Part shown: positions 716-24,767 of the stretch, piece after piece | Layout: each line of letters opens with the position of its first letter | Numbering within the stretch: the stretch's first letter is position 1 | Source of the DNA: Candidatus Poribacteria bacterium | Lineage (GTDB): Bacteria > Poribacteria > WGA-4E > GCA-2687025 | Assembly: GCA_028818695.1 (NCBI GenBank) | Contig: JAPPNK010000016.1 | Location: forward strand, 1-32,852 | Direction of reading: 5' to 3' | Length of the DNA: 32,852 nt | The notes under the pieces: model-generated | The model's database searches: none | What the model was told of the DNA's origin: nothing | What the model saw: the letters and a program-made list of their open reading frames with translations, nothing else | Made by a program: the position numbers and the translations under genes

Positions 716-1822
716 CTACCCGCCGCCCTCGGCATATTGAGCCGTCCCCGCGCGTATCTGCCACACATCCGAAGCGGCGCGCTCGCGAAGATCCTCCGGC
801 GCCTCGGTCGCCGTTAAAAAAACCTGCGGCGACAGCGACCCGAACGCTGAAAAAAGGCGTCTCGCCCGCCCCCTGTCCAGCTCCGACACCACATCGTCCA
901 GCAGCGCGACCGGCGCGATTCCTGTCGCCGCCTTCAACCATTCAAACTCCGACAACTTCAACGCCAGCGTCAAGGTCCGCTGCTGCCCCTGCGAACCGAA
1001 ACGGCGCGCGCTCCGCCCGTTCAAGCGCAGCTCCAGGTCGTCCCGATGCGGACCGACCGATGTTGTCCCGCGGCGTATGTCGTTCGTCTCCGCCGCCGTG
1101 AGCCGCTCCGCAAACGCATTCTCCAGCGACTCGCCCGACACGTTGGCGCGGTAGATCAGCTCCGCCTCCTCGCCTTCTCCGGCAAGCCGCTCCTGTTGAA
1201 GCCGCAGCAGCGGGCTGAGCTCTCCGCACACCTCCAAACGGCGCGCCGTGAGACGAACCCCCGCGGCGGCAAGCGGAGCCTCCCAGACGCGCAGCTCCGA
1301 AAGCGCCATGCGCCGGTCGCGCGTCTGCTTCAACGCCTCGTTGCGCTGCGACAACGCCCGCCGGTAATCGATCAGATCAGACAGGTAATCCTTGCGCGCC
1401 TGCGAGATGAGCGCGTCTAAAAAACGGCGGCGATCCTCGGGAGACCCGCGAACCGCCGCCGTCGACTCAGGAGCGAAAAAAACGATCTTCAAAAGACCGA
1501 CGATGTTTGAAAAACGAGCCTGCGCCTTCCCGTCCAGCGTCACGCGCTTTCGTCCGCCGCGCTCATACGCAATCTCCAAACGGCGGCGCGAATATCCGTC
1601 GTTCAGCAACCCCCGTATGTAGTAACTGGACGCCCCATGCCGCGCCATCTCCGCGTCCGAAGCCGACCGATGCGAGCGCGTCGCCGCCAGCATGTGGATC
1701 GCCTCCAGCAGGTTCGTCTTTCCCTGCGCGTTCTCCCCTAGAAAAAGATTGAACCGACCGAAGCGAAGCGACGCCTCCTCGTAGTTGCGAAAATTAACAA
1801 CCGTCAGCTCCTCAAGGCGCAC
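716..1822 (-). CDS. recF: DNA replication/repair protein RecF
   Basis: RecF is an ABC/SMC-like ATPase that binds gapped DNA and helps RecOR load RecA. The 368-residue product has the family's usual length. Walker A is GENAQGKT at residues 29-36, the signature SQGQQRT at 277-283 and Walker B VALLDD at 305-310, followed by the D-loop SELD. The N-terminus (LEELTVVNFRNYEEA) is typical. The start is GTG at 1822, ten bases after the dnaN stop, so it probably depends on translational coupling; I see no strong Shine-Dalgarno. It is third in the dnaA-dnaN-recF order common near bacterial origins. The last codons abut a TTGGATTCCCGCT sequence (705-717) that matches the core of the dispersed repeat family of this window, so the 3' end may have been altered by it. 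Confidence 0.95.
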   Translation of the reverse strand: MRLEELTVVNFRNYEEASLRFGRFNLFLGENAQGKTNLLEAIHMLAATRSHRSASDAEMARHGASSYYIRGLLNDGYSRRRLEIAYERGGRKRVTLDGKAQARFSNIVGLLKIVFFAPESTAAVRGSPEDRRRFLDALISQARKDYLSDLIDYRRALSQRNEALKQTRDRRMALSELRVWEAPLAAAGVRLTARRLEVCGELSPLLRLQQERLAGEGEEAELIYRANVSGESLENAFAERLTAAETNDIRRGTTSVGPHRDDLELRLNGRSARRFGSQGQQRTLTLALKLSEFEWLKAATGIAPVALLDDVVSELDRGRARRLFSAFGSLSPQVFLTATEAPEDLRERAASDVWQIRAGTAQYAEGGG

Positions 1823-1832
1823 GACAACGGCG

Positions 1833-3128
1833 TCACTTCATCAACGGCATGACGACGCAGAGATAATCGTCCGCGTCCGACTCGCGCACCACGGCGGCGC
1901 TGTTGTGGTCTTTGAAATCCACATAGATCACTTCGGAACGAGCCGCCTCCAGCGCATCCGCCAAGAAAGTATGCTTGAAATCGATGTCCAGCGGCTCCGT
2001 CGAGGCGGCGTTGATCTCCTCCTCCGCCTGTCCAGACGCCGAAATGGACGACAGCGCCAGATGATCCTCCTTGACGCTCAAGGTGAGCCGCAGCGTCGAG
2101 CGGTCTGAAAACTGGCTGATGCGCCGAATCGCGTTCATGAGGGAGCCGCGGTTCACCTCCATTCGGATCGAGTTGTTTTTCGGGATCAGCTCGCGGTATT
2201 CAACGTAGTTCCCGTCCTGGAGTCGGCTGATGAGCGTCTTGCCGCCGCTGTCGAACACGATCTGGGCGGAGGGGGAATTCTCGCGCTGCGCCGTTCCGAC
2301 GCGCAGTTCGTCGTCCGGCTCAAAGGCGCGCAGAAGCTCGTCGGCGGCTTTTGTCGGCAGAAGGGCGCTCCATTTCGGCTGCTCGCCGGCGGGAGCCGCT
2401 TCCGGTTCCGCCTGCTCTTCTTCTTCCGCTTCCTGCTCCGCCTCTTCGCCGCCGTTCTCTTCGGCTTCCGGTTCCGCCTCTTCGACGGGACCGTTGCCAT
2501 TTTCTTCCGCCTCTTCCTGTTCCGCCTCGCCGTCTGCGGAGCTATCAGCCGACGCTGCCTCTCCCCATCCGCCCAGACCCTCCACATCGACGCTCTTGAC
2601 GGCGAGGCGCATGCTGTCGGTCGCCACGGAGCAGAGCCTGTCGTCGAACGCTTGGAAGTAAACGGCGTTCAGAACATACCGCGTCTCTTCAGAAGCGACG
2701 GCAAACTTGGTGCAGCGGATCAGCTCCTGCAGGTCGCCCGCCTTGACGGTGAAATCGAACCTGTCGGCGGTGTCGATGCGAGGGAATTCGTCCGCGGCGA
2801 TGCCGGGCAGCTTGGCGACAACCTTGCCGCACTGAACGGCGATCTGGCGCCCGTCCAGCTTTTCGATGCGCACATGGTCGTCCGGCAGTTCGCGCACAAA
2901 GGCTGCCAGTTTGGCGGCGGGGAGCGTCGCGCTTCCGCTCTCTTCCACATGGGCGTCCACGCGCAGGCGCACGCTCACCTGGAGATCGGTCGCGGTCAGA
3001 ACAGCGACGTCGTCCTCAACATCAATCAGAACGTTGGCAAGAATGGGCAAGGAGCTTTTGGTCATGGCGACGCTCTGGAGCAGCTGCATCGCGCTGTTGA
3101 GTTCGGTTCGGTCAAATACGAGTTTCAT
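1833..3128 (-). CDS. dnaN: DNA polymerase III beta sliding clamp with acidic insertion
   Basis: The beta clamp is a ring-shaped dimer that tethers the replicative polymerase and other DNA enzymes to DNA. The N-terminus (MKLVFDRTELNSAMQLLQSV), the ATDSMRLAV segment at about 169-177 and the C-terminus VVMPLM are clear family marks. At 431 residues it is about 60 longer than the usual 365-380. The excess is a Glu/Ala/Gly/Asn-rich stretch at about 184-250, lying between RLAVKSV and SALLPTKAADELL, that is in a loop of domain II just past the residues forming the partner-binding pocket in E. coli clamp. ATG at 3128 is preceded by AGAAAGGA. The insert stays in frame and the flanking fold is intact, so the gene looks functional. 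Confidence 0.95.
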   Translation of the reverse strand: MKLVFDRTELNSAMQLLQSVAMTKSSLPILANVLIDVEDDVAVLTATDLQVSVRLRVDAHVEESGSATLPAAKLAAFVRELPDDHVRIEKLDGRQIAVQCGKVVAKLPGIAADEFPRIDTADRFDFTVKAGDLQELIRCTKFAVASEETRYVLNAVYFQAFDDRLCSVATDSMRLAVKSVDVEGLGGWGEAASADSSADGEAEQEEAEENGNGPVEEAEPEAEENGGEEAEQEAEEEEQAEPEAAPAGEQPKWSALLPTKAADELLRAFEPDDELRVGTAQRENSPSAQIVFDSGGKTLISRLQDGNYVEYRELIPKNNSIRMEVNRGSLMNAIRRISQFSDRSTLRLTLSVKEDHLALSSISASGQAEEEINAASTEPLDIDFKHTFLADALEAARSEVIYVDFKDHNSAAVVRESDADDYLCVVMPLMK

Positions 3129-3189
3129 CTCGGTTCCTTTCTCGTTTGCGTCGGCGCGTCCGCGCCTTTAATCTTTTTTAATTTTAAAA

Positions 3190-3207
3190 TAGTAGCAGTA
3201 GTAGTAG
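3190..3207 (+). promoter_or_regulatory. DnaA-trio array of the origin unwinding element
   Basis: The plus strand reads TAG TAG CAG TAG TAG TAG, six triplets without interruption, which is 3'-GAT-5' type DnaA-trio sequence. It is flanked on one side by AT-rich DNA and on the other by GTCC and the box TGTGGAAAA. In known origins DnaA filaments assemble on this single strand to open the duplex. Confidence 0.8.
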
Positions 3208-3529
3208 GTCCTGTGGAAAACGCGCGCAACCGTCAAGAGTCTGCTGATCGCGCAGGATCAAGGCGTATGAAAATCGTTGGAAAACCGCCATGGCAACTTT
3301 GTGCGCAACTTTTGGAGAAACCGCATGCGCCGCTTTAGTCCAAAACCGCCGGCAAAACGGCAACAGCCTTTCCAACGCTTTCCCACAAAACTGTCCACAT
3401 GCGCTTTTCAACGGCAAATTCGGAGCGCGCCCATGAAAACGCCATGCGAGCAACCTGTGGGAAAAACATGTGGGAAATTGTGGACAACCCGCATGAGCCT
3501 GCTTGTCATGCGGGTTTAAAGCGATCCAG

Positions 3530-3538
3530 TTATCCACA
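3530..3538 (+). promoter_or_regulatory. consensus DnaA box
   Basis: TTATCCACA is an exact match to the bacterial DnaA box. It lies 28 bases downstream of the dnaA stop and is the strongest of about seven boxes in the spacer. Confidence 0.9.
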
Positions 3539-3566
3539 AAAACGTCCCTGCTCCGCCGCGTTTTTT

Positions 3567-4982
3567 TCATGACGCCGACCCTCCGCGCCTCGAACGTCCG
3601 CCTTGAATGAGCTGTTTCAGCCTTTCAATCGTCTCTGCCGTCCCCGGATTTTCCTGCGCCTCGTTTTCGATCTTCTTGCATGCTGAATGAACGGTGCTGT
3701 GGTCGCGCCCGCCGAATTCGCGCCCGATCTCCATGAGCGAGTGGTCTGTCAGCTGGCGGCAGAGATACATCGCCATATGGCGGGCGTTGGCGACGTGTTG
3801 CGTGCGGAGTTTCGATTTCATTTTCGACGCGCTGACGCCGTAAAACTCGGCGGTCGTTTCCAGCGTCTGTTTTGCCGAGATAAACTCCGCCCCGCCGCCG
3901 CTGTTTGCGTCCCCGCCGAGAGCCTCCTGCGCCACATCTACGGTGATCGGAACGCGCAGCAGCCGCGCATGTTGAAACGCGGTCATGAGGGAGCCTTCCA
4001 GCTCGCGTATGTTGGAGTCGATGCGCTCGGCAAGGTACTCAGCCGCCTCGTCCTCCAGCTCAACGGCGCCGATGTCGGCCGCTTTTCGTTTTAAAATGGC
4101 GACGCGCGTTTCAAATTCCGGCGGGTAGATGCGCGCCGTCACCCCCCATAGAAACCGCGTCTTGATGCGCTCCTCAATCTCCGACATGTCGTTCGGGGCG
4201 TCGTCGCTTGCCAGGACAATCAGCTTGTTCGCGTTGTAAAGGTCGTTGAAGGTGTGGAGGAACTCAATCTGCGTCTGCTCCTTTTTTTGAAGGATCTGGA
4301 CGTCGTCCATGAGCAGCACATCGTTTGTGCGGTACTTGTTGCGGACAAGCTGGGTTTGCGAGTTCCCGATCGCTTTGATCGTGTCGTTCAGAAACGTTTC
4401 GGCAGAGACGTAGAGCGTTTTGAGCGGGGCGCCGGATTCGACGACCGCGTTTCCGATGGCGTGGAGCAGATGCGTCTTGCCGAGTCCGCTTCCGCCGGAG
4501 AGAAAAAGCAGGTTGCACGGTCCGTTGACGGGGCGCTCCGAGACGCTCATGGCGGTGGCGGCGGCGAGTCGGTTGCTGGAACCGATGATGAACCGCTCGA
4601 AGACGTATTGTGGGTTCAGTCCGCTCGGCCGGTCTTGTCCGATGGGAACGACAGCGGGCTGGCGCCGACGCACCGGCAGAGGGGGCGCGATTTCGGTTGC
4701 GTCGTCTAGCATGCGGGCGGGTCTGGGCGAGCTGTTTTCAGGGTTCACGACGTACTCCAGCTCAATGGGCTGGTTCGGATACCGCCGCTGGAGTATCGCT
4801 TTCATGGCGGGGGCGTGGCGTTTCTGTATGGCGCCGCGCGCCCAGGTGGAGGAGGTGATGATTCGGAGAAGGTTCTGTTCGGGTATGAATTCGCCGTCAG
4901 CCGGTTCCAGATAGACGCACCGGCTGCCGTTCAGCGTTTCTTCGACAAAGTCGCGCCAAACAAAGCTGTTAGAGTCCGACAT
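3567..4982 (-). CDS. dnaA: chromosomal replication initiator DnaA
   Basis: DnaA is the AAA+ initiator that binds DnaA boxes in oriC and melts the origin. In the 471-residue product, domain I is at the N-terminus, a Pro/Arg-rich linker lies at about 85-120, and the AAA+ core has Walker A GGSGLGKT (163-170), Walker B VLLMDD (222-227) and the arginine-rich sensor segment IEERIKTRFLWG. Domain IV carries the box-binding helix-turn-helix with GREFGGRDHSTVHSACKKIE (420-439). Ser replaces the more usual Val in GGVGLGKT. ATG at 4982 follows GGAAGG at a spacing of 10. I found no convincing promoter upstream. The gene is transcribed toward oriC and lies upstream of dnaN. Confidence 0.97.
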   Translation of the reverse strand: MSDSNSFVWRDFVEETLNGSRCVYLEPADGEFIPEQNLLRIITSSTWARGAIQKRHAPAMKAILQRRYPNQPIELEYVVNPENSSPRPARMLDDATEIAPPLPVRRRQPAVVPIGQDRPSGLNPQYVFERFIIGSSNRLAAATAMSVSERPVNGPCNLLFLSGGSGLGKTHLLHAIGNAVVESGAPLKTLYVSAETFLNDTIKAIGNSQTQLVRNKYRTNDVLLMDDVQILQKKEQTQIEFLHTFNDLYNANKLIVLASDDAPNDMSEIEERIKTRFLWGVTARIYPPEFETRVAILKRKAADIGAVELEDEAAEYLAERIDSNIRELEGSLMTAFQHARLLRVPITVDVAQEALGGDANSGGGAEFISAKQTLETTAEFYGVSASKMKSKLRTQHVANARHMAMYLCRQLTDHSLMEIGREFGGRDHSTVHSACKKIENEAQENPGTAETIERLKQLIQGGRSRRGGSAS

Positions 4983-14873: not shown

Positions 14874-15704
14874 ATGGCATTTACGCGCCGAGAGATGATC
14901 GCGCGGCTGCGCGCGGTTTTAGCAGAGGGAAAGGCGGTGATCGGAGGCGGAGCCGGGACGGGCATCTCGGCAAAATGCGCCCAAGCCGCCGGCATCGACC
15001 TGATCATCATCTACAACAGCGGGCGGTTTCGTATGGCGGGGCGCGGTTCGCTTTCCGGGATGCAGCCCTACGGAGACGCGAACGCGATTGTGGTGGAGAT
15101 GGCGCGGGAGGTTCTGCCTGTCGCGCGTCAAACGCCGGTTCTGGCGGGGGTCTGCGGCACCGATCCGTTCCGTCTGATGGATGTCTTTTTGCGCGAATTG
15201 AAAGCGATCGGATTTTCGGGCGTCCAGAATTTCCCGACGGTCGGCATCATCGACGGCGTGTACCGCGCCAACCTTGAGGAGACGAACATGGGTTACGACC
15301 TTGAGGTGGAGATGATCGCCGAGGCGCGGCGGCAGGACCTTTTCACGGCGCCGTATGTGTTCAACGAACAGGAGGCGGCGGCGATGGCGGAAGCGGGGGG
15401 CGATCTGCTCGTCGCGCATATGGGTTTGACGACAAAAGGCTCCATCGGCGCGCAGACGGCGTTGACTCTGGACGAGGCGGTGGAGCGCGTTCAGGCGATT
15501 CATGACGCGGCAAAGGCGGTTCGAGACGATGTGATGGTGATCTGTCACGGGGGACCGATTGCGGAGCCTGAAGACGCGCGGTATGTTCTGGATCGCACTG
15601 AAGGCGTCGTCGGCTTTTTCGGCGCGTCGTCCATTGAACGGCTGCCGACCGAACGCGCGCTGACGGAGCAGGTTCGACGGTTTAAAGAGATTGCGTTGAG
15701 TTAG
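14874..15704 (+). CDS. phosphoenolpyruvate-hydrolase-family TIM-barrel protein
   Basis: The 276-residue protein matches the PEP_hydrolase/Tm-1-C type TIM-barrel family by phrases such as [79 protein letters not shown] and a C-terminal [16 protein letters not shown]. The reaction of bacterial members is poorly defined; the fold resembles PEP mutase/isocitrate-lyase enzymes. In many genomes the partner is a Tm-1/UPF0261 ATP-binding protein, but none is present here. GAAGGGAGGGG gives a strong ribosome site before ATG 14874. It stands alone, with its own promoter. Confidence 0.85.
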
Positions 15705-15740: not shown

Positions 15741-15840
15741 CAAACGGCGCTGATCATTTGTCGATCATCTATGCGCGACAAACTCGTTTGTCGATCATAT
15801 TTGCTCAAAAGTGAACGTCAAACGGCGCGCGCATCATGCT
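15741..15840. repeat. direct and inverted repeats in the spacer before the DUF4365 module
   Basis: TTTGTCGATCAT occurs at 15757-15768 and 15787-15798. The second copy shares a 7-base hairpin CGACAAA-CTCG-TTTGTCG (15776-15793). CAAACGGCGC also occurs twice, near 15741 and 15820. It may be an operator, a terminator for the convergent genes or an insertion scar. Confidence 0.5.
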
Positions 15841-15842
15841 TT

Positions 15843-16979
15843 TCATTCATGCATGATGAGAGAGAGGTTGCGCGGCCGCCGCAATTCATATCCGTTGCCG
15901 GCGCGGTAGATGTCGCCGTCTAGGCTGATGGGGCGCCGCTCATCAAAAGCCCTGATGACCGCTTTGAATGACGGCGCTTCAAATACAACGTTCATACGAA
16001 GAGGCTTCCCGTTGCGCACACAGTAGATCCCCGCTCTGCCGTCAAATTCTTCAGGTTCCCGCTCTAACTTGACAACCCATGCGACGACCGTTTCATCCAA
16101 AAAAGGCTCTGTACTGCGAAATTGAGCGGCCGCTTCCGCCAGCATCTCCGCTGAATGTATCGTGAATTGGAAACGGCGCGGCTCTACATTGGACAGCCGC
16201 TCTTCCGACCATGACACATGAATGACAATGCCGTTCCATTGAGCGGTCAACGCCGCCAGTGAATCGCACAGGTTTGCGCTGACGCCGTAGGGGACGGCGT
16301 CTTGAAAAGGTTCCAGCGAGTCTTTCTTGAGAGATTCTTCGATGGCTTTGTCGGTATGTTCCAACGCCTCCGAAAGTTTGCGAATGGCGCGGCGGGGAAA
16401 CGGCGCCAGCGCATCGCCGCGTCCTTCATGGAGGGTCGGCTGCTGAAGGAACAGCGGCGAATAGAGCGTGAGCGACTGTCCCATGCCGAAAGAACGAAGC
16501 GGCCGCACAAGACTAAGATAATCGCTCACCTGAGAGCTGAAGGGACCGCGGTAGATTGACTGCGGTTTTTCGACAGCGCGCGCGGCCGCCGCAAACATGC
16601 TGCGGGCGTCTTTCAAAAGACCTGCGCCTTGATTCAGCGAAAGCGGGGCTTCAGAGGCGTTGACGGTTTTGGAAGGATGCATACGCACAACGTCATAACA
16701 GGCTTCAGATATGTCGTAAAACACGTCCAGTTGGGAACGTTCCTCCACCTCGGCGAGCGCTGTGACCGCTTCAGCCATGCGTTCCGCATAGCCGGGAGAC
16801 GTGTCTTTATACGGAACGACGACGCTCCATCGTTGACTGCCCCGCTCAAAGGTGTAGAAAGACGCTGGACGCTTGCCCCATTGTCCCTCGTCTTTCCAAC
16901 TTCGATATTTAAGGTAGGATCTCAAATTGCGGAGAGGCAACGACAACAAAGCGTCTCGGTCGCGGATTTGGACTTTCAT
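15843..16979 (-). CDS. unrecognised 378-residue protein paired with a DUF4365 protein
   Basis: I do not recognise this family. There is no signal peptide or membrane span, so it is cytoplasmic. The first about 100 residues carry several aromatic-rich strands (SYLKYRSWKDEGQWGKRPASFYTFERGSQRWSVVVPYKD), then a helical region (about 105-215) and a mixed C-terminal part with ITIHSAEMLAEAAAQF-like and WVVKLEREPEEFDGRAGIYCV segments that read like alternating strands. It begins two bases after the stop of the DUF4365 gene, with AAGGAGAG as ribosome site, so the two are co-expressed and probably interact. The strands plus repeated RRF/RRP basic spots would suit a nucleic-acid or partner-binding role, but this is inference only. 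Confidence 0.7.
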   Translation of the reverse strand: MKVQIRDRDALLSLPLRNLRSYLKYRSWKDEGQWGKRPASFYTFERGSQRWSVVVPYKDTSPGYAERMAEAVTALAEVEERSQLDVFYDISEACYDVVRMHPSKTVNASEAPLSLNQGAGLLKDARSMFAAAARAVEKPQSIYRGPFSSQVSDYLSLVRPLRSFGMGQSLTLYSPLFLQQPTLHEGRGDALAPFPRRAIRKLSEALEHTDKAIEESLKKDSLEPFQDAVPYGVSANLCDSLAALTAQWNGIVIHVSWSEERLSNVEPRRFQFTIHSAEMLAEAAAQFRSTEPFLDETVVAWVVKLEREPEEFDGRAGIYCVRNGKPLRMNVVFEAPSFKAVIRAFDERRPISLDGDIYRAGNGYELRRPRNLSLIMHE

Positions 16980-16981
16980 GG

Positions 16982-17461
16982 TTACTCTCCTTCTTGGTCA
17001 ATAAGATTCGTCATATTGTTGAGCTGGGCGGCGTCAAAGACGTTTCCAACCGGTACGACAACCGTGACGGTCTCAACATTTTGCGTCGGAGGCTCGCCTT
17101 CAAGAGACGCCCAATAGCAGCAATGGCGCACGCACAATTCTTCTTCAGTTTGGTTGAGCCGGTCAGCTTCGTTTTTCGGCATCCACATGACAATCAGGAT
17201 TCGAGGCACGTCCGTTTCTTTGCGCAGATCGTTGTAATTTTTGACGGACAGAGGGAAATGCAAACCGTCGCCCCGCATAATGTCGCGCGCCGTCGATTTC
17301 AGCTGAAACTCAATTCTGGGGCAGTTTCCAACATCGGACATTAAGATTCCGTCCCCGCTGTCTGTGTCAACATTGATCGCGCCAATCTTCCAGCCAGCCT
17401 GAGCCGCCACAGCGCGCACATACGCAATAGACAGCTGCTCCATCTGTTGTTCAGGAGTCAT
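16982..17461 (-). CDS. DUF4365-type PD-(D/E)XK nuclease-fold protein
   Basis: The 159-residue protein resembles the DUF4365 family. It starts MTPEQQMEQLSIAYVRAVAAQAGW, has the acidic VDTDSGDGIL (Asp37) and the core EFQLKST (Glu51, Gln53, Lys55), matching the D...ExQxK active-site pattern of restriction-like nucleases, and then HFPLSVKNYNDLR and PRILIVMWMP. Length is normal for a stand-alone copy. The start was set to ATG 17461: an in-frame TTG at 17533 lies inside the -35 box of the promoter and cannot be transcribed. GGAGG stands 15 bases upstream, a long spacing. It is the first gene of a two-gene operon. Nuclease activity and a defence role are inferred. Confidence 0.7.
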   Translation of the reverse strand: MTPEQQMEQLSIAYVRAVAAQAGWKIGAINVDTDSGDGILMSDVGNCPRIEFQLKSTARDIMRGDGLHFPLSVKNYNDLRKETDVPRILIVMWMPKNEADRLNQTEEELCVRHCCYWASLEGEPPTQNVETVTVVVPVGNVFDAAQLNNMTNLIDQEGE

Positions 17462-17504
17462 TGCTGTGAACTCATTCCTCCACTGACTAGACTTTGACCA
17501 TATA

Positions 17505-17533
17505 ATTTTAGGACGCAGTAGGGCTGTTGTCAA
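17505..17533 (-). promoter_or_regulatory. near-consensus sigma-70 promoter for the DUF4365 operon
   Basis: The minus strand reads TTGACA (17533-17528), 17 bases, TAAAAT (17510-17505). Transcription would begin near 17498, leaving a leader of about 37 bases. The -35 box overlaps the stop of the 21-codon ORF at 17530-17595. Confidence 0.8.
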
Positions 17534-17595
17534 TAGGCGGACAACGCCTGCTCGCAGCGTTCAACGGCGCTCGATTCGTCTGCCGCGGCGGTCAT
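17530..17595 (-). CDS. 21-codon ORF overlapping the Gfo/Idh stop (possible gene remnant)
   Basis: ATG shares ATGA with the stop of the oxidoreductase gene, the usual arrangement for a coupled downstream gene. The product is MTAAADESSAVERCEQALSA plus Y. It then stops in the DUF4365 promoter. It is either a truncated downstream gene cut off by insertion of the DUF4365 pair, or chance. Confidence 0.3.
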   Translation of the reverse strand: MTAAADESSAVERCEQALSAY

Positions 17596-18680
17596 GGCGC
17601 CTCCCAACCCTCCAAAGGATGCCGCCGATCCGTCAGCGGAAGCGCCGCCCGCCCGTGACGATGCGCCGCATAAACCCCAAGGATCATCTCCATTGACCAG
17701 CGCGCGTTTCGTCCGCTGCACATCGGCTCCCGATCCTCCTCTACCGCCTGAATCAAATCCAACACAAGCGGCTTGTTCAGTTCCACAACCCCCTTGCTCC
17801 GCGACGGATGCCCGACCACAACCCACTCATCCGCCGACGGCGGCGGAGACAAACATCCATGCGGATACAAACAGAGCCGATCGCAGCGGTAATCCAGAAC
17901 GCCCTCGCTTCCCTCGATCTGAACGCCCATGGACCGATTTCCGAAATGAGAACCCTCCCGCCGAGAACGAAACGTCCCGACAATGCCGTTCTCAAAAAGG
18001 TAGGTCGCCCGCAGATGATCGCCCGCAATCAGCCCGACCTGCTCATCCCCCTGCCGCGCGTCCCCCTGCCCGACGGGGCGCCCGCCTTCAAGAACGACGG
18101 CGCTCACGCTCACAGGATCGCCGCCGAAGAGGCGCATCAGGTCGAAAATGTGCGTCCCAAGAACCGTCAGGTCGAGTCCGCCGCCGCGGCGGTCCTGCTT
18201 TCCGAAGCCATGCAGCTCGCGGATTTCGCCGATCGCCCCGTCCTCGATCATCTCCTGCGCCGTTTGAATGAACGGATGCGCTCGGTTTTGGTGGGCGACG
18301 GCGATCTTGACGCCGTTTCGTTCGCAGGCGTTCAGCATCGCGTCCGCGTCCTTCGGCGTTTGCGAAAACGGCTTTTCGCAGTAGATGCCGCGTATGCCCG
18401 ATTCGGCGGCGGCAACGACCATCTCCCTGCGTTCGCCGGCCCAGCGCGGACAGACGCTCACGAAGTCGAGCCGTTCGTTGTTGAGCATCTGTCGATAGTC
18501 GGCGTAACGGCGCTCCTGGGGGACGCCGAGGCGCTCTCCCGCCGCTTTCAATCCGCCGGGGTCGGCGTCCGCGACAGCCGCGATTTCGGCTCCGTCGATG
18601 GAGAGCCAGACCGTGTCGAGTCCGTGTCCGTAGTTGCCGCTTCCTGTATGTCCGATGACGCCGATTCGATAGGTTGCCAT
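17592..18680 (-). CDS. Gfo/Idh/MocA family oxidoreductase
   Basis: This is an NAD(P)-dependent sugar or cyclitol dehydrogenase-type protein. The 362-residue product starts MATYRIGVIGHTGSGNYGHG, a Rossmann fold whose glycine pattern is unusual (GHTGSGNYG). It has the family lysine motif CEKPFS (about 118-123), then AVAHQNRAHP and the C-terminal alpha/beta domain with LDLTVLGTHIFDLMRLF, where the His is a typical catalytic residue. ATG 18680 was chosen over a longer open frame because the Rossmann start follows it directly and GGAAAGGCGG precedes it. No signal peptide. The substrate is not determinable. It lies after the DUF4365 operon's promoter, in the same orientation. Confidence 0.88.
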   Translation of the reverse strand: MATYRIGVIGHTGSGNYGHGLDTVWLSIDGAEIAAVADADPGGLKAAGERLGVPQERRYADYRQMLNNERLDFVSVCPRWAGERREMVVAAAESGIRGIYCEKPFSQTPKDADAMLNACERNGVKIAVAHQNRAHPFIQTAQEMIEDGAIGEIRELHGFGKQDRRGGGLDLTVLGTHIFDLMRLFGGDPVSVSAVVLEGGRPVGQGDARQGDEQVGLIAGDHLRATYLFENGIVGTFRSRREGSHFGNRSMGVQIEGSEGVLDYRCDRLCLYPHGCLSPPPSADEWVVVGHPSRSKGVVELNKPLVLDLIQAVEEDREPMCSGRNARWSMEMILGVYAAHRHGRAALPLTDRRHPLEGWEAP

Positions 18681-18950: not shown

Positions 18951-21900
18951 GTGGACGCGAAGGCGTTGGTTGCGGCGGCGGGGATCGGCTTGCTCGCTTT
19001 TTTGTTTTATCCAAGATCGGACGCCCCGAAGACGCCCGGTTCTGGCGAATGGGTCGAAACCGCCAAACAGATCGAAGGCGAACCGCTCAAACTCGCCAGC
19101 TGGAGCCGCGCCGATCCGCCCACCGCCACCTTAGACCTCGGCTTCGTCTATCTGCTCGACAGGGCGCAGATCGAATTTGAAAACGCCGCCGAAGACGGAC
19201 CTCGAGTGTACGAGATCGTTGTCAGCAAGGAGAGAAACGCCGCGTATCAGCGCGTCTTCACCTTCAGAAGCTCCTCCAGAAACTACCCCTACGCCGCCCT
19301 AGAGTTTCAGAACCGACAGGAGGGGCGCTGGGTTCAGGCGGCGGTCAACGACTGGTTCAGCGTCAAGCCCGCCGTCAAGTCGTTTCAGGTGGGTCCTGTT
19401 TATACGCGCGTCTGGAGTCCGATACAACGCGTCGAAACCTCCCACAACCCCGACGCCGCAAATCTGCTCATCGACGGCGTCTCGACAGACGAGTCGACCT
19501 GGGCGGGCGCGGAGAAGCAAGAAGCGGAGGAGCAAGAGACGGAAAAGGAAGGCGAACCGCAGTTTCAAACGCCCGCAGAAGATGTCTGGGCTGTCATTGA
19601 GCTGAAAGAGGAAGCGGTTGTGTACGGAATGCGCGTCGCAACCGGCGGACCTGGCAACGGCGTCCGCGCTTATCAGGCGCATGCAAGCCTGGACGGGGAG
19701 CGGTTCCGACTCATGGGTTCCGCGTCCGACCTGCCGGACGAGCCGATCCTGAGCCGCCTGATGTTTCAGGAGCCTGTGAAGGCGCGGTATCTGCGCATCG
19801 AGATCAAACAAGACGAATGGCACGGCGCTTATCCTGCGCTGCGCGAAATCGAAGCGTTCACCGACCGTTACCGCCCCGCCCCATCCGTTCAGCAGGACGG
19901 CGCCGGCGGCGTCAGCTTCATACAGATACGGCGCGACAACTGCGGACAGAGCCTAGAGCGCTCGCCCCATATGACGCAGGGCTTTCCATACGACCGAGGC
20001 GGCGGGGAGCCTGAAAACCGATACGGATGGATCGAAAAAGAGGAAATCGAGGGCGAAGCGGAGGAGAATCTGCGCGCCTTCGCTTACCATTACGACGCGG
20101 TCCGCTTTCATTATGACGGGCTTTCAAAAGACCGCCTTTACACGTTGTATGTGTCGTATCTGCAGAACGCGGACGGGGGTCGGCGTCAAAATCTGACGGC
20201 GGACGGGTATCTGCTTCATGGGGATGAGCCGGTTCCGACAGCGGCGCAGCCCCCGCGCATTTTTGCGGTGCCGCCGCAGGCGGTTGAAGACGGCGAGCTG
20301 GTCGTTTCGGTCAACCGGCTGGCGGGACCGAACGCTGTCGTCTCCGAAATCTCGCTCTACGAGTCGGCGCAAGGAGCGGACGAATCGGACGCCGGCGACC
20401 GCCGAACTGCCAAGATCGTCCAAGCGCATGCGCCGTTGACCATCGACGGCAAGCTGGACGACTGGAGCCGACTGCATCCGCTGCGCGTCGGAGACGGGGA
20501 GCCGTCCGTCTGGGCGGAGTGGGACGACTCGTCGCTGTATATCGCGCTGTCGATACCGCTGCCGCTTCTCTCGGAGGCGCCGTCGCTGCAGGACGCCTTC
20601 GACCTGTTCATTGACGCGCGGGTGGACGGGGCGGAGCATGCGCCGTCGCTCTCCATCTACCAGAAGGGCGACGTTCACATACGGCTGCTGCGCATCGGCG
20701 GGACGCCCGCGGCGCGGTATGTGCGCCACGAGTCGGAGCAGGGGGCGGAGGCGCCGATGGAGATACCGGCGGTTAAAACCGCGGCGCGCTCCGACGGCGG
20801 GCTGTACACGCTGGAGATCCAGCTTCCAAAAGAAGGCGCGCTCCCAGACTGGGAACCGAAAATCGACCGCTTGATCGGGTTGAACTACATCCTGTCGCTT
20901 CCGAACACGGAGACGGCGCGCTGGCATCTTTCGGCGCGCCGTCCGCATGACCCGCCGGTGCGCTGGCTGCGCTGTCAGTTGATCGGATCGATTCAGGGGC
21001 GTATGCAGTTCGGCGCCGCGCCGGACGATTTTGAAACGGCGGACGGCGGGGTCTTTCCGTACTTCGCCGGCGGAAGTCTCTGGGCGATGGCATACGACCC
21101 GGACGCCAACCGCGACCCGTCCGTCGAGGAGTCGATCTCCGCCGTCGTTTCAGGCGGCGCCTTTGGCGAGGAGATCCGTCTTGAGCTGCGGGAGGGCGCG
21201 CTGGTTGTTGGAGAGGGGGGCGAAGTGGAGCTGGCGCCGTCCGCCGACAGCGAGCGGTTTTTCGCGCCCGTTCAGACCGAATACGCCGAGGAGCCGTTGA
21301 ACGCGGCGGACCGCATCTCGGCGCGGGGCGGCGAACTGTTGACCGTTTCATACGAAGACTCGTTCGCGCGGCCGGACGGCTCCGCGGAAACCGCCTCGGC
21401 GCAGGCGTCCGCCGTAACGGGCGCGGACGGAGAGATTCAGATGGAACCGGCGGGACGATTCACCGCCGGCGACATGCTGCGCATTACAGCGGTTGACGGC
21501 GACGAACACGGGCTGCTTGAAATCATAGAAGAAACGGCAGCTGAAGAGACCGATGAAGCGACAGAAGACGCTTCAAATGAAGAGGAGGCAGAGGCTCCGA
21601 CTCAGGCTAATGAGGAGACGGCGGAGGCGCCGACTCAGGCTAATGAGGCGGCGGCGGAGGTTCCGACTCAGGTTAAAATAAACGGGCGCGAGGCGGTTGT
21701 GTCAGCGCTGGATCTGGGCGAGGCGCGGGATGTTGAGAAGATCGTATTGAAAGAGAATGAGAGCGGCGCGTATGAAGGCGAGCTGCCGACCGTATACAGC
21801 GTTGAGCCTGTGAGGGGGGACGGCGTCTTGCAGATCGCCGGAAATCAGATTGCGCAGGCGGCGTATATCGACAAGGCGCGGGCGAGCGGAGAAACGGACG

Positions 21901-24767
21901 TCTCCATAACCGCCTCGGCCCGCGCCGCGGCAGGCGACACCGCCCTTCTCCAAGTTCGCATGCCCGGCGGCGCTTTTGAGAACGGCGGCGGTGCGCCGGC
22001 TCTCTTTAGGGCGGGGGCGCCGCTCATTGTGCGCGTGCGCGACGCCGATTTAAACAAAGACCCGTCCATCGCCGACACGGCTCTAATTCAGGCGGAAGGC
22101 TCCATTTTAAACGACTCTTTGACCATTAAATTAACCGAAATGCTGCCGAACTCTGGGCTTTTTGAAGGCGCCGTTCCGACCCGCTACGGCGTTCAAGCTG
22201 AACAAAATGAAACCATCGAAGCCGCGGGCGGCGAACGCATCCTCTTTAAACATCTGGACGCGCTCCAAGCGACGGGCGAACCGAACGTTCTGGTTGAGGC
22301 GCACGCCGAAGCGGAAACGGGCGGCGACGGACGGCTCGCCATTGTGCGCGGCGACGACGCGGCAGAAACGCGGCTTTTCAACGCCGGCGATCTGCTCCAT
22401 CTGCGCTTAGCGGAGCCGGACGACATCGGGCAGGAGGCGCTGGTTCGCCTGGAAACGCGCGGCGAAAACGGACAGGCGCTCGACTCCGAGAGCGTCTATC
22501 TGCGCCGCTCCGCCTCCGACTCGCAGCTCTACCTCGGCTCCATTCCGACCGCATACGGCGCGCCCGTTCCGTCCGACGAGACGCTCCAAGCGCGGGGCGG
22601 AATCGTTGTCCGAGCCGTGTATCAAGACGCGCTGCGCGCCAGCGGCGAAACAAACATCGAAGCGTCCGCGGAGGCGGAGGCGAACGCCGGCAGCGACGGA
22701 AAACTGCGGACGCTCGACCTGTTTGGAGAGAAGGAGGCGGACGCTTTCCGCGCGGGAGAAGCGATTCTGATCGAGGTGAAGGACGACGACCTGAACGTCT
22801 CGGACGAGGCGATTGAAACCGCGTCGGCGGAGGCGCGGGAGGATTTTCTGGGCGACTCGGTCGTCGTCGTTCTGAAAGAAACGACAGGGAGCAGCGGCGT
22901 GTTTCGAGGCGAGCTGCGGACGCAATACGCCGACGCCGCCGTTGAGGACAATCTGCTTCAGGCGCAGGGGCAAAGCTACGTCGTCGTCGCCTATATCGAC
23001 GCGCTGTCGGCGGACGGGGAGGCGCAGGCGGAGCGGACGGCGGCGCTCTATGCGGCGTCGGGCGAACGGGGGCGCGTCGCGGCTCTCACGCTGGACGGCG
23101 AGCGGCGCGTCGGCAACCTTCATCCGAACGGAACCGCCCTCATACGGGTTGTGGACGGCGATCTGAACGAAGACCCGCTGTTTCAAGAGTCGACCGAAGT
23201 GACGGCGGAGGGAAACCTGCTGCGCGACCAGCTGCGGCTTCATCTGCGCGAAACGGGGCTGGACACAGGCGTGTTTGAAGCGAGGCTGGAGACGGAACTT
23301 TCCAGCGAGGCGAACCGAAGCGACCTGCTTTTACAGACGGCGGAGAAGGAGACCGTAACGATCGTTTATGTGGATGCGTTGACCGACGCCGGCGAGCCGA
23401 ACGCGCCTGCGAGCGTCCGCCTTGTGGTCGCCGGTTCCAGCCCTGGGCGCATTGAAATCGTGGAAGCGGACGGGACGGAGATGACCGCGTTCACGGCGGG
23501 GGAGTGGCTCTATGTGGCGATACAGGACCTGCTTTTGGCGGCGGATCCGAACATTCGCCCTGCGGCGCTGTTCACCGCTTCGGAGTCGGGCGACCAGGCG
23601 CGGGCGGTTTTGGAGCCTGTGCCGGGGGCGGACGGGCAATTTTGGGGCAGGGTTGCGACGCGGTACAGCCTTCTGCCGGCGCGGGACAACACGTTGGATG
23701 TGCGCGGCGGCGAGACGGTCGCGGCAACCTACGCGCCGGAGGGGCTGTTTGGGCGGCTCATCGCGGACGCGACGATTGCGCGGCGGGGTCAGCGCGGACA
23801 GCTGAGCGCGGCGCTGCCGGACGGCTCCCCGCTTCTAGAGCTGGCGCCGGGCGACACGGCGGTTGCGCTCCTGTATGACAGCGACCGAAACGCGGATCCG
23901 TTCGCCGTGGAGACCGCGGAGGCGTATGCGTCTGCGCAGGACGGGGCGGAGCCGACGCCGATTCGGCTGCGGGAAACGGCGCCGAATTCGGGCGCCTTTC
24001 GGGGCGATGTTTTAACCTCCTACGGCAAGGAAGCGCCGGCGGGCGCGCTCGGTCTCACGGGCGGCGAAACGATCAAGATCGCCTACGTCGACCCGCTCAC
24101 CGACACGGGCGAAGCGGGCGTTGAGATCGAAACGACGGTTCAAGTCCGCAAGGTCGGTTTTGCGCCGTACTCCGAAAGCAGACTATCGGTGACCGGCGTC
24201 CCAAACCTATGGGCGCTTGATCACGCGATGAGTACGCCGGGCGAGGAGATACGGGTCTGGGCGCAGTGGACGCGCGACGCGCTCTATTTCTTCATTCAGG
24301 TTGAAGACGATTCGCCCGTTGTGGAGGATGTGACGCGCTGGCATATCGGTTCCGACGCGGTGGAGCTGCATCTGACGCCGTTTCAGGACGAGTATGATCT
24401 GCCAAAGCATCTGTCGCCGACGGGGGCGGCGCCTGGGGCGGCGTTCTGGATATGTCCGCGCGGGGGCGGCTATTCGGGCGAAGACCCCTATATCGGTCAG
24501 GCGGCGCCGCGCCGCGTTTATAACCTGTCGGGCGGACGTTCTGGCTTTGAGGCGGCGGTCAAGACGACGGACGGGTATTACACGATTGAAGCGCGCCTTC
24601 CGTACGGCGCGGCTCTGGGCGGTTTTGATCCGTTCACTTCGGCGAAGCGGCGCAAGATCGGGTTCAACTTTCTGCTGTACCGTTCGGACGCGGCGCAGGT
24701 CTGGTGGGCGGAACCGCTTCGCCGCCCGAGCGGCGCCGGCGTTCTTTATCTAGAGGGCGGCCCGTGA
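18951..24767 (+). CDS. giant secreted surface protein with discoidin-like, CBM9-like and tandem repeat domains
   Basis: The 1938-residue protein begins with a signal/anchor helix (VAAAGIGLLAFLFY). Two F5/8-type-C (discoidin-like) regions at about 27-135 and 164-307 contain SWSRADPPTATLDLGFVYLL and RYLRIEIKQDEWHGAYPALREIEAF. A CBM9-like domain follows at about 495-670 (TIDGKLDDWSRL, AEWDDSSLYIALS). From about 710 to 1730 come seven or eight copies of a 120-125-residue module built around DADLNKDPS, ETxxxSGVFxG, GGE and YxDALxxxGE. An APTQANE-type linker (881-908) interrupts the array. A second CBM9-like domain (about 1744-1937) closes the protein. GTG 18951 has AGAAAGGAG upstream. Carbohydrate binding and surface location are inferred; there is no sorting signal at the C-terminus. 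Confidence 0.85.
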   Translation: MDAKALVAAAGIGLLAFLFYPRSDAPKTPGSGEWVETAKQIEGEPLKLASWSRADPPTATLDLGFVYLLDRAQIEFENAAEDGPRVYEIVVSKERNAAYQRVFTFRSSSRNYPYAALEFQNRQEGRWVQAAVNDWFSVKPAVKSFQVGPVYTRVWSPIQRVETSHNPDAANLLIDGVSTDESTWAGAEKQEAEEQETEKEGEPQFQTPAEDVWAVIELKEEAVVYGMRVATGGPGNGVRAYQAHASLDGERFRLMGSASDLPDEPILSRLMFQEPVKARYLRIEIKQDEWHGAYPALREIEAFTDRYRPAPSVQQDGAGGVSFIQIRRDNCGQSLERSPHMTQGFPYDRGGGEPENRYGWIEKEEIEGEAEENLRAFAYHYDAVRFHYDGLSKDRLYTLYVSYLQNADGGRRQNLTADGYLLHGDEPVPTAAQPPRIFAVPPQAVEDGELVVSVNRLAGPNAVVSEISLYESAQGADESDAGDRRTAKIVQAHAPLTIDGKLDDWSRLHPLRVGDGEPSVWAEWDDSSLYIALSIPLPLLSEAPSLQDAFDLFIDARVDGAEHAPSLSIYQKGDVHIRLLRIGGTPAARYVRHESEQGAEAPMEIPAVKTAARSDGGLYTLEIQLPKEGALPDWEPKIDRLIGLNYILSLPNTETARWHLSARRPHDPPVRWLRCQLIGSIQGRMQFGAAPDDFETADGGVFPYFAGGSLWAMAYDPDANRDPSVEESISAVVSGGAFGEEIRLELREGALVVGEGGEVELAPSADSERFFAPVQTEYAEEPLNAADRISARGGELLTVSYEDSFARPDGSAETASAQASAVTGADGEIQMEPAGRFTAGDMLRITAVDGDEHGLLEIIEETAAEETDEATEDASNEEEAEAPTQANEETAEAPTQANEAAAEVPTQVKINGREAVVSALDLGEARDVEKIVLKENESGAYEGELPTVYSVEPVRGDGVLQIAGNQIAQAAYIDKARASGETDVSITASARAAAGDTALLQVRMPGGAFENGGGAPALFRAGAPLIVRVRDADLNKDPSIADTALIQAEGSILNDSLTIKLTEMLPNSGLFEGAVPTRYGVQAEQNETIEAAGGERILFKHLDALQATGEPNVLVEAHAEAETGGDGRLAIVRGDDAAETRLFNAGDLLHLRLAEPDDIGQEALVRLETRGENGQALDSESVYLRRSASDSQLYLGSIPTAYGAPVPSDETLQARGGIVVRAVYQDALRASGETNIEASAEAEANAGSDGKLRTLDLFGEKEADAFRAGEAILIEVKDDDLNVSDEAIETASAEAREDFLGDSVVVVLKETTGSSGVFRGELRTQYADAAVEDNLLQAQGQSYVVVAYIDALSADGEAQAERTAALYAASGERGRVAALTLDGERRVGNLHPNGTALIRVVDGDLNEDPLFQESTEVTAEGNLLRDQLRLHLRETGLDTGVFEARLETELSSEANRSDLLLQTAEKETVTIVYVDALTDAGEPNAPASVRLVVAGSSPGRIEIVEADGTEMTAFTAGEWLYVAIQDLLLAADPNIRPAALFTASESGDQARAVLEPVPGADGQFWGRVATRYSLLPARDNTLDVRGGETVAATYAPEGLFGRLIADATIARRGQRGQLSAALPDGSPLLELAPGDTAVALLYDSDRNADPFAVETAEAYASAQDGAEPTPIRLRETAPNSGAFRGDVLTSYGKEAPAGALGLTGGETIKIAYVDPLTDTGEAGVEIETTVQVRKVGFAPYSESRLSVTGVPNLWALDHAMSTPGEEIRVWAQWTRDALYFFIQVEDDSPVVEDVTRWHIGSDAVELHLTPFQDEYDLPKHLSPTGAAPGAAFWICPRGGGYSGEDPYIGQAAPRRVYNLSGGRSGFEAAVKTTDGYYTIEARLPYGAALGGFDPFTSAKRRKIGFNFLLYRSDAAQVWWAEPLRRPSGAGVLYLEGGP
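21591..21674 (+). repeat. 33-base tandem repeat coding an APTQANE linker
   Basis: Units begin at 21591, 21624 and 21657 and encode EAPTQANEETA, EAPTQANEAAA and EVPTQV. The unit length is a multiple of three. Confidence 0.8.

Follow-up and report, generated by a model that had tools for sequence, protein, structure and literature searches.

The stretch of DNA considered here (the window, 32,852 nucleotides) is an entire contig (G000:C15) of a 3.57-Mb genome assembled in 35 contigs. Its minus strand carries an operon of two genes at positions 17461-15843. The first, gene A (16982-17461), encodes a 159-residue protein of the DUF4365 nuclease type, and the second, gene B (15843-16979), encodes a 378-residue partner that begins two bases after the stop of A, as the sequence-only reading of this DNA had described, with a ribosome site (GGAGAG) overlapping the end of A. 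A promoter-like site, TTGACA-17-TAAAAT, is present at 17533-17505 and shortly precedes an ATG at 17461; with 11 of 12 positions matching, the near-perfect promoter previously assigned to the pair was borne out. The open reading frame of A as listed comprises 183 codons, from a TTG at 17533 to 16982 on the minus strand. This TTG is an unlikely start codon because its first base also opens the -35 hexamer TTGACA, paired with TAAAAT, and the ATG at 17461, which lies near the start of homologues, is much more likely. Elsewhere in the window, recF-like, dnaN and dnaA genes are grouped at 716-4982, so that the origin of the chromosome is probably within the window, at a distance of about 11 kb from the A-B pair.

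The operon is located between two metabolic genes, in agreement with the earlier description: a PEP-hydrolase-like gene at 14874-15704 (PEP_hydrolase, 5.2e-129) and a Gfo/Idh/MocA oxidoreductase gene at 17592-18680, the latter followed by a 1938-codon open reading frame on the other strand (18951-24767). A truncated gene had been suspected at the oxidoreductase border. In alignments to orthologues from three related genomes (63-65% identity), the oxidoreductase is covered from residue 1 to residue 361 of 362, and is thus full length, while the short open reading frame at 17530-17826 overlaps it, so that no truncated gene lies there. A comparison aimed at the empty site yielded no clean one, the oxidoreductase orthologues having other neighbours. 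At the opposite border, the spacer between the convergent genes (15757-15798) contains the 12-mer TTTGTCGATCAT twice, with copies at 15757 and 15787, 30 bases apart; the expected number of such repeats is 0.11 at up to one mismatch, for a pattern picked after the fact. The border repeats that had been called unusual do exist, but a search of the genome did not recover them as a genome-wide element, and they look like part of a terminator region between the convergent genes. The spacer bears no sign of a mobile end, and no RNA element was detected in it by Rfam matching or by folding (z -0.62).

Profile searches of both proteins identified a family for the pair. Protein A matches PDC-M02A of PADLOC-DB (PDLC04297) with an E value of 4.5e-52 over model positions 1-162 of 165, and protein B matches PDC-M02B (PDLC04298) at 3.4e-84 over positions 1-374 of 380. 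B is matched by 30 PADLOC-DB models in all, and profile searches found no Pfam or NCBIfam domain in it, so the partner is unrecognised, as had been stated, in the latter two collections and recognised in the former. PDC-M02 is defined by two adjacent genes on the same strand, an arrangement present in the window, and the genes are adjacent in relatives as well. Judged by sequence, the window pair is a member of PDC-M02, a candidate system catalogued in PADLOC-DB v2.0.0 (2023), with which it shares both full-length proteins, their order and their spacing class. Since both proteins match over their full length, the proposal of an undescribed system does not hold. The PDCs are defence candidates derived from a guilt-by-embedding approach, and for most of them experimental validation is pending (PMC12988326). 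In the literature searched, neither a paper dealing with PDC-M02 by name nor an experiment on any of its members was found, and among publications on DUF4365 no title or abstract was recognisable as concerning the A-B pair.

The assignment of A to DUF4365 with an ExQxK core was confirmed, with a match to PF14280 at 9.8e-18, whose 65 bits exceed the cut-off of 24.3, and a core reading R-I-E51-F-Q53-L-K55. The predicted active site comprises D32, D37, E51, Q53 and K55. Far from varying freely, D32, D37, Q53 and K55 are invariant across 64 A sequences, of which 72% have D and 22% have E at position 51; this conservation is not circular, since the loci were gathered through B and not through A. 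Neither protein gave a useful match when solved structures were searched by sequence. The structural model of A (pLDDT 92.6) has as its top match the DREN domain of SPARDA (VIA Z 12.5, rmsd 3.4 over 134 residues; Foldseek E 1.3e-5), followed by archaeal Hjc (Z 9.4), and the A profile aligns weakly to EcoRV (E 0.07), placing D37/Q53/K55 over the D-(D)-x-K columns. In TmuRE, a DUF4365-APAZ protein, Q62 and K64 form a potential active site, and a Q62A/K64A variant was made as an inactive form (PMC10810196). We take these residues as equivalent to Q53 and K55, since both pairs constitute the Q-x-K of the same domain. Sequence and structure prediction together show A to be a nuclease of the DREN/DUF4365 type that consists of the PD-(D/E)XK domain alone, its predicted active site being intact.

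The model of B (pLDDT 92.4) has an OB fold at its C-terminus (residues 292-378), which resembles PriB, SSB, RPA and HIN-200 domains with Z scores of about 7 to 9.5, middling values that are common for OB folds and indicate the fold and not a function. The prediction for the C-terminus is a single-strand-binding type of OB fold. OB folds are common, and protein or RNA are also possible ligands; B is probably a DNA-binding partner of A. Among the PDB matches listed none was to a full-length fold, all of them being to the C-terminal OB domain, and because this domain filled the list the N-terminal 290 residues, to which no fold was assigned, were barely covered by the fold search. The only profile match of B to a solved structure, a designed helical bundle (4.8e-05), was taken as a helix artefact. 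The sole good full-length structural match was gp37 of Leptospira phage LE1 (3.6e-20), which turned out to be a B protein itself, with an A gene, gp38, adjoining. A BFVD match to a DUF6575 phage protein (TM 0.31) was too weak for use; DUF6575 has been found in a validated defence system (PMC9519451). Within the family, the motif LGQTExGSF (B residues 158-170, window positions about 16470-16510) is kept in most M02B proteins, unlike the window B and its four nearest Chloroflexota relatives, which lack it and form their own clade. Conservation of a second motif, GVSANLC, is partly circular, as the genome scan used it as a pattern, and only six independently found sequences count towards it.

Strong A matches were found beside B in all samples. 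Each of the 28 such matches in a set of 26 genomes selected through B directly adjoins a B gene, and six further B genes are orphans without A. The same holds in two samples not chosen through B, each of which includes one or two genomes known beforehand to hold the pair: six of six A matches adjoin B in 301 genomes of one phylum, as do all five strong matches, one of them next to a partial B, in 385 genomes of one class. Relatives were located at 174 loci in species genomes, and among the 80 kept, whose selection by B favours an intact B, A is full in 55, fragmented in 12 (some possibly through assembly error) and absent in nine, the other four loci being at contig edges. The two genes overlap through ATGA in 35 of the 55 full pairs. 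At five orphan loci (L042, L029, L073, L067 and L079), B lies directly behind genes of the Vsr/Dcm, HsdS, nucleotidyltransferase or DUF1828/1829 types, and B may have partners other than A. The tight coupling, and the presence of strong A matches only beside B, suggest that the two proteins would act jointly, with B holding or recruiting A. The confinement of A to the side of B fits a needed sensor and a restraining antitoxin equally, the present data not separating the two. As a toxin-antitoxin system, B would silence a toxic nuclease A, and its loss in stress or infection would free A, resulting either in defence by self-killing or in mere stabilisation of the carrier element. The overlap of the two genes and their carriage by plasmids and prophages agree with such a role, as does, suggestively, the asymmetry whereby B sometimes occurs without A. 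Nonetheless, B exceeds the typical size of an antitoxin and has an OB fold, the nuclease-first order is not diagnostic, intact A stands beside a truncated B at two loci (G084 and G101), and the selection of the 80 loci by B enters into the asymmetry itself. We regard this explanation as unlikely.

The neighbourhoods of the relatives are rich in defence genes, the enrichment that the sequence-only reading had proposed to look for. For 20 loci in large contigs, the genes within about 6 kb number 148; the 144 control genes came from other parts of these 20 genomes, in 12-kb stretches positioned according to a fixed rule. At a threshold of 1e-10, 241 PADLOC models were matched near the loci versus 27 in the controls, counts which refer to models and not to genes and which are inflated by many overlapping restriction-modification models. 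Among Pfam families, HsdS, HsdR, DUF1828/DUF1829, resolvases and nucleotidyltransferases appear near the loci, and transporters and enzymes in the control stretches. At single loci, Vsr and Dcm, or HsdS, stand directly upstream of an orphan B (names read from the translations), and at a locus on an Entomospira plasmid there are an Abi gene and three genes of the DUF262 type. The position of the window pair itself, between two metabolic genes and not in a defence island, counts against a defence reading. The hsdS, hsdR, Vsr and Dcm neighbours, together with the alignment of D37/Q53/K55 over the D/D/K columns of EcoRV, would suit a restriction-like system of type IV or accessory kind, in which B reads a modification or structure of DNA and A cuts that DNA, alongside the restriction-modification systems nearby. 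Restriction-modification systems possess a cognate methyltransferase, however, whereas none is present in the two-gene operon or in the adjacent genes of the window; no domain that reads modified bases was recognised in B; and, no other defence genes being as common as those for restriction, their nearness may reflect only the clustering of defence islands. This possibility is given a low probability, comparable to that of a toxin-antitoxin pair.

The distribution of the pair is that of a rare and mobile element. B was found in one of 84 genomes of the phylum, the window's own, with the PADLOC model or a 69-sequence profile, and the pair is absent from 14 control genomes. In the tree of 93 B proteins the phyla are mixed, and the window B groups with four Chloroflexota proteins (100/99), the nearest relative being 53% identical. 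The G+C content of the pair is 0.547 versus 0.600 for the window, and its GC3 is 0.60-0.61 versus 0.735-0.775 in eight window genes and 0.68 in a ninth. Taking into account the rarity in the phylum, the mixing of phyla in the tree and the compositional offset, the pair looks horizontally acquired. Further relatives comprise eight in viral contigs and six on plasmids. A first scan of viral contigs using one protein gave no match, the pair had no nucleotide match to plasmids, and a tblastn search of phages with the window B found none; a more distant B led to LE1 and to mycobacterial prophages, and in Mycobacterium abscessus the A-B pair occupies the left end of prophages. On a Pigmentibacter plasmid (L006:7663-8004), a transposase-like fragment occupies the place of A and reaches an intact B. 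The window's genome contains additional PDC-M02 sequence at two contig ends: C23 has a complete A followed by a B that stops halfway (114718-115834, L004), and C12 has only the second half of a B (37730-38317, L003). The two ends have a 21-base stretch in common, in inverted orientation, and the fragments could represent either two copies or a single gene split by the assembly. Several relatives (L010-L089), Synechococcus spongiarum for example, may be sponge-associated, going by record titles. One report describes sponge-associated microbes as rich in defence genes (PMC5099237). A housekeeping role in repair or recombination, pairing a resolvase-like nuclease with a PriB/SSB-like partner, would agree with archaeal Hjc as the second-best fold of A and with the resemblance of the OB fold of B to PriB and SSB, but the occurrence of the pair in a single genome of its phylum and in none of the controls, its foreign composition and its carriage by plasmids and phages make this highly improbable.

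Linkage across phyla, an invariant active site, defence-rich neighbours and carriage by plasmids and temperate phages together indicate a mobile PD-(D/E)XK module of defence type, as had been proposed, and the pair is probably a real and functional one, belonging to a catalogued candidate family and not to a new one. Of the three outcomes named beforehand as refuting the proposal, namely genes that do not co-occur, freely varying active-site residues and conserved core genes without mobility, none was seen. The explanation that we favour, with reasonable though not high confidence, is that the pair is a PDC-M02 module gained by horizontal transfer, whose role is most likely defence against phages or plasmids, where B would sense the invader and A would cut. 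By analogy with SPARDA, B would take the place of the sensor, recognising nucleic acid of the invader or a replication intermediate, possibly by means of its OB fold together with the larger N-terminal region (residues 1-290). B could then gather several copies of A, the assembly switching the nuclease on, and A would cut the DNA of the invader, or DNA in general. A more specific version, in which a DREN-type nuclease is governed by an OB-fold sensor of exposed single-stranded or replicating DNA, unrelated to Argonaute, is put forward only tentatively; if true, it would constitute a second, guide-free trigger for a nuclease type known so far with Argonaute partners. The invariant D32, D37, Q53 and K55, the likeness of the predicted fold of A to the SPARDA DREN and the predicted OB fold of B are new, and PDC-M02 is seen to have many relatives over many phyla, plasmids and phages. 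The DREN link and the OB fold provide a sensor-nuclease hypothesis that names residues and can be tested; for the source genome, the pair is an ordinary mobile gene pair of defence type.

When compared to known systems, A resembles the archaeal Hjc and EcoRV-type PD-(D/E)XK nucleases in core fold and catalytic columns, without close sequence similarity and with a different partner and context; where EcoRV has a second acidic residue, A has Q53. The likeness to SPARDA is closer, with a nuclease fold and a Q-x-K active site common to its DREN and to A, and in both cases a two-gene operon in which one protein holds the nuclease and the other a putative sensor. In SPARDA, the DREN is at first kept inactive; recognition of a target leads to a filament, in which DREN tetramers form and cut nucleic acids broadly (PMC12205087). 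There, however, APAZ is fused to the nuclease, whereas A, at 159 residues, stops where the nuclease domain ends, and the partner is a short Argonaute (MID-PIWI), whereas B and the adjacent genes have no Pfam Argonaute match and the fold matches listed for B are to OB domains only. Other counterparts are carried by temperate phages: gp38-gp37 of LE1 and genes 1-2 of the M. abscessus prophage prophi102-2 are A-B pairs by profile (E 1e-33 to 3e-60) with the gene order kept, and their B proteins are 23-25% identical to another family member.
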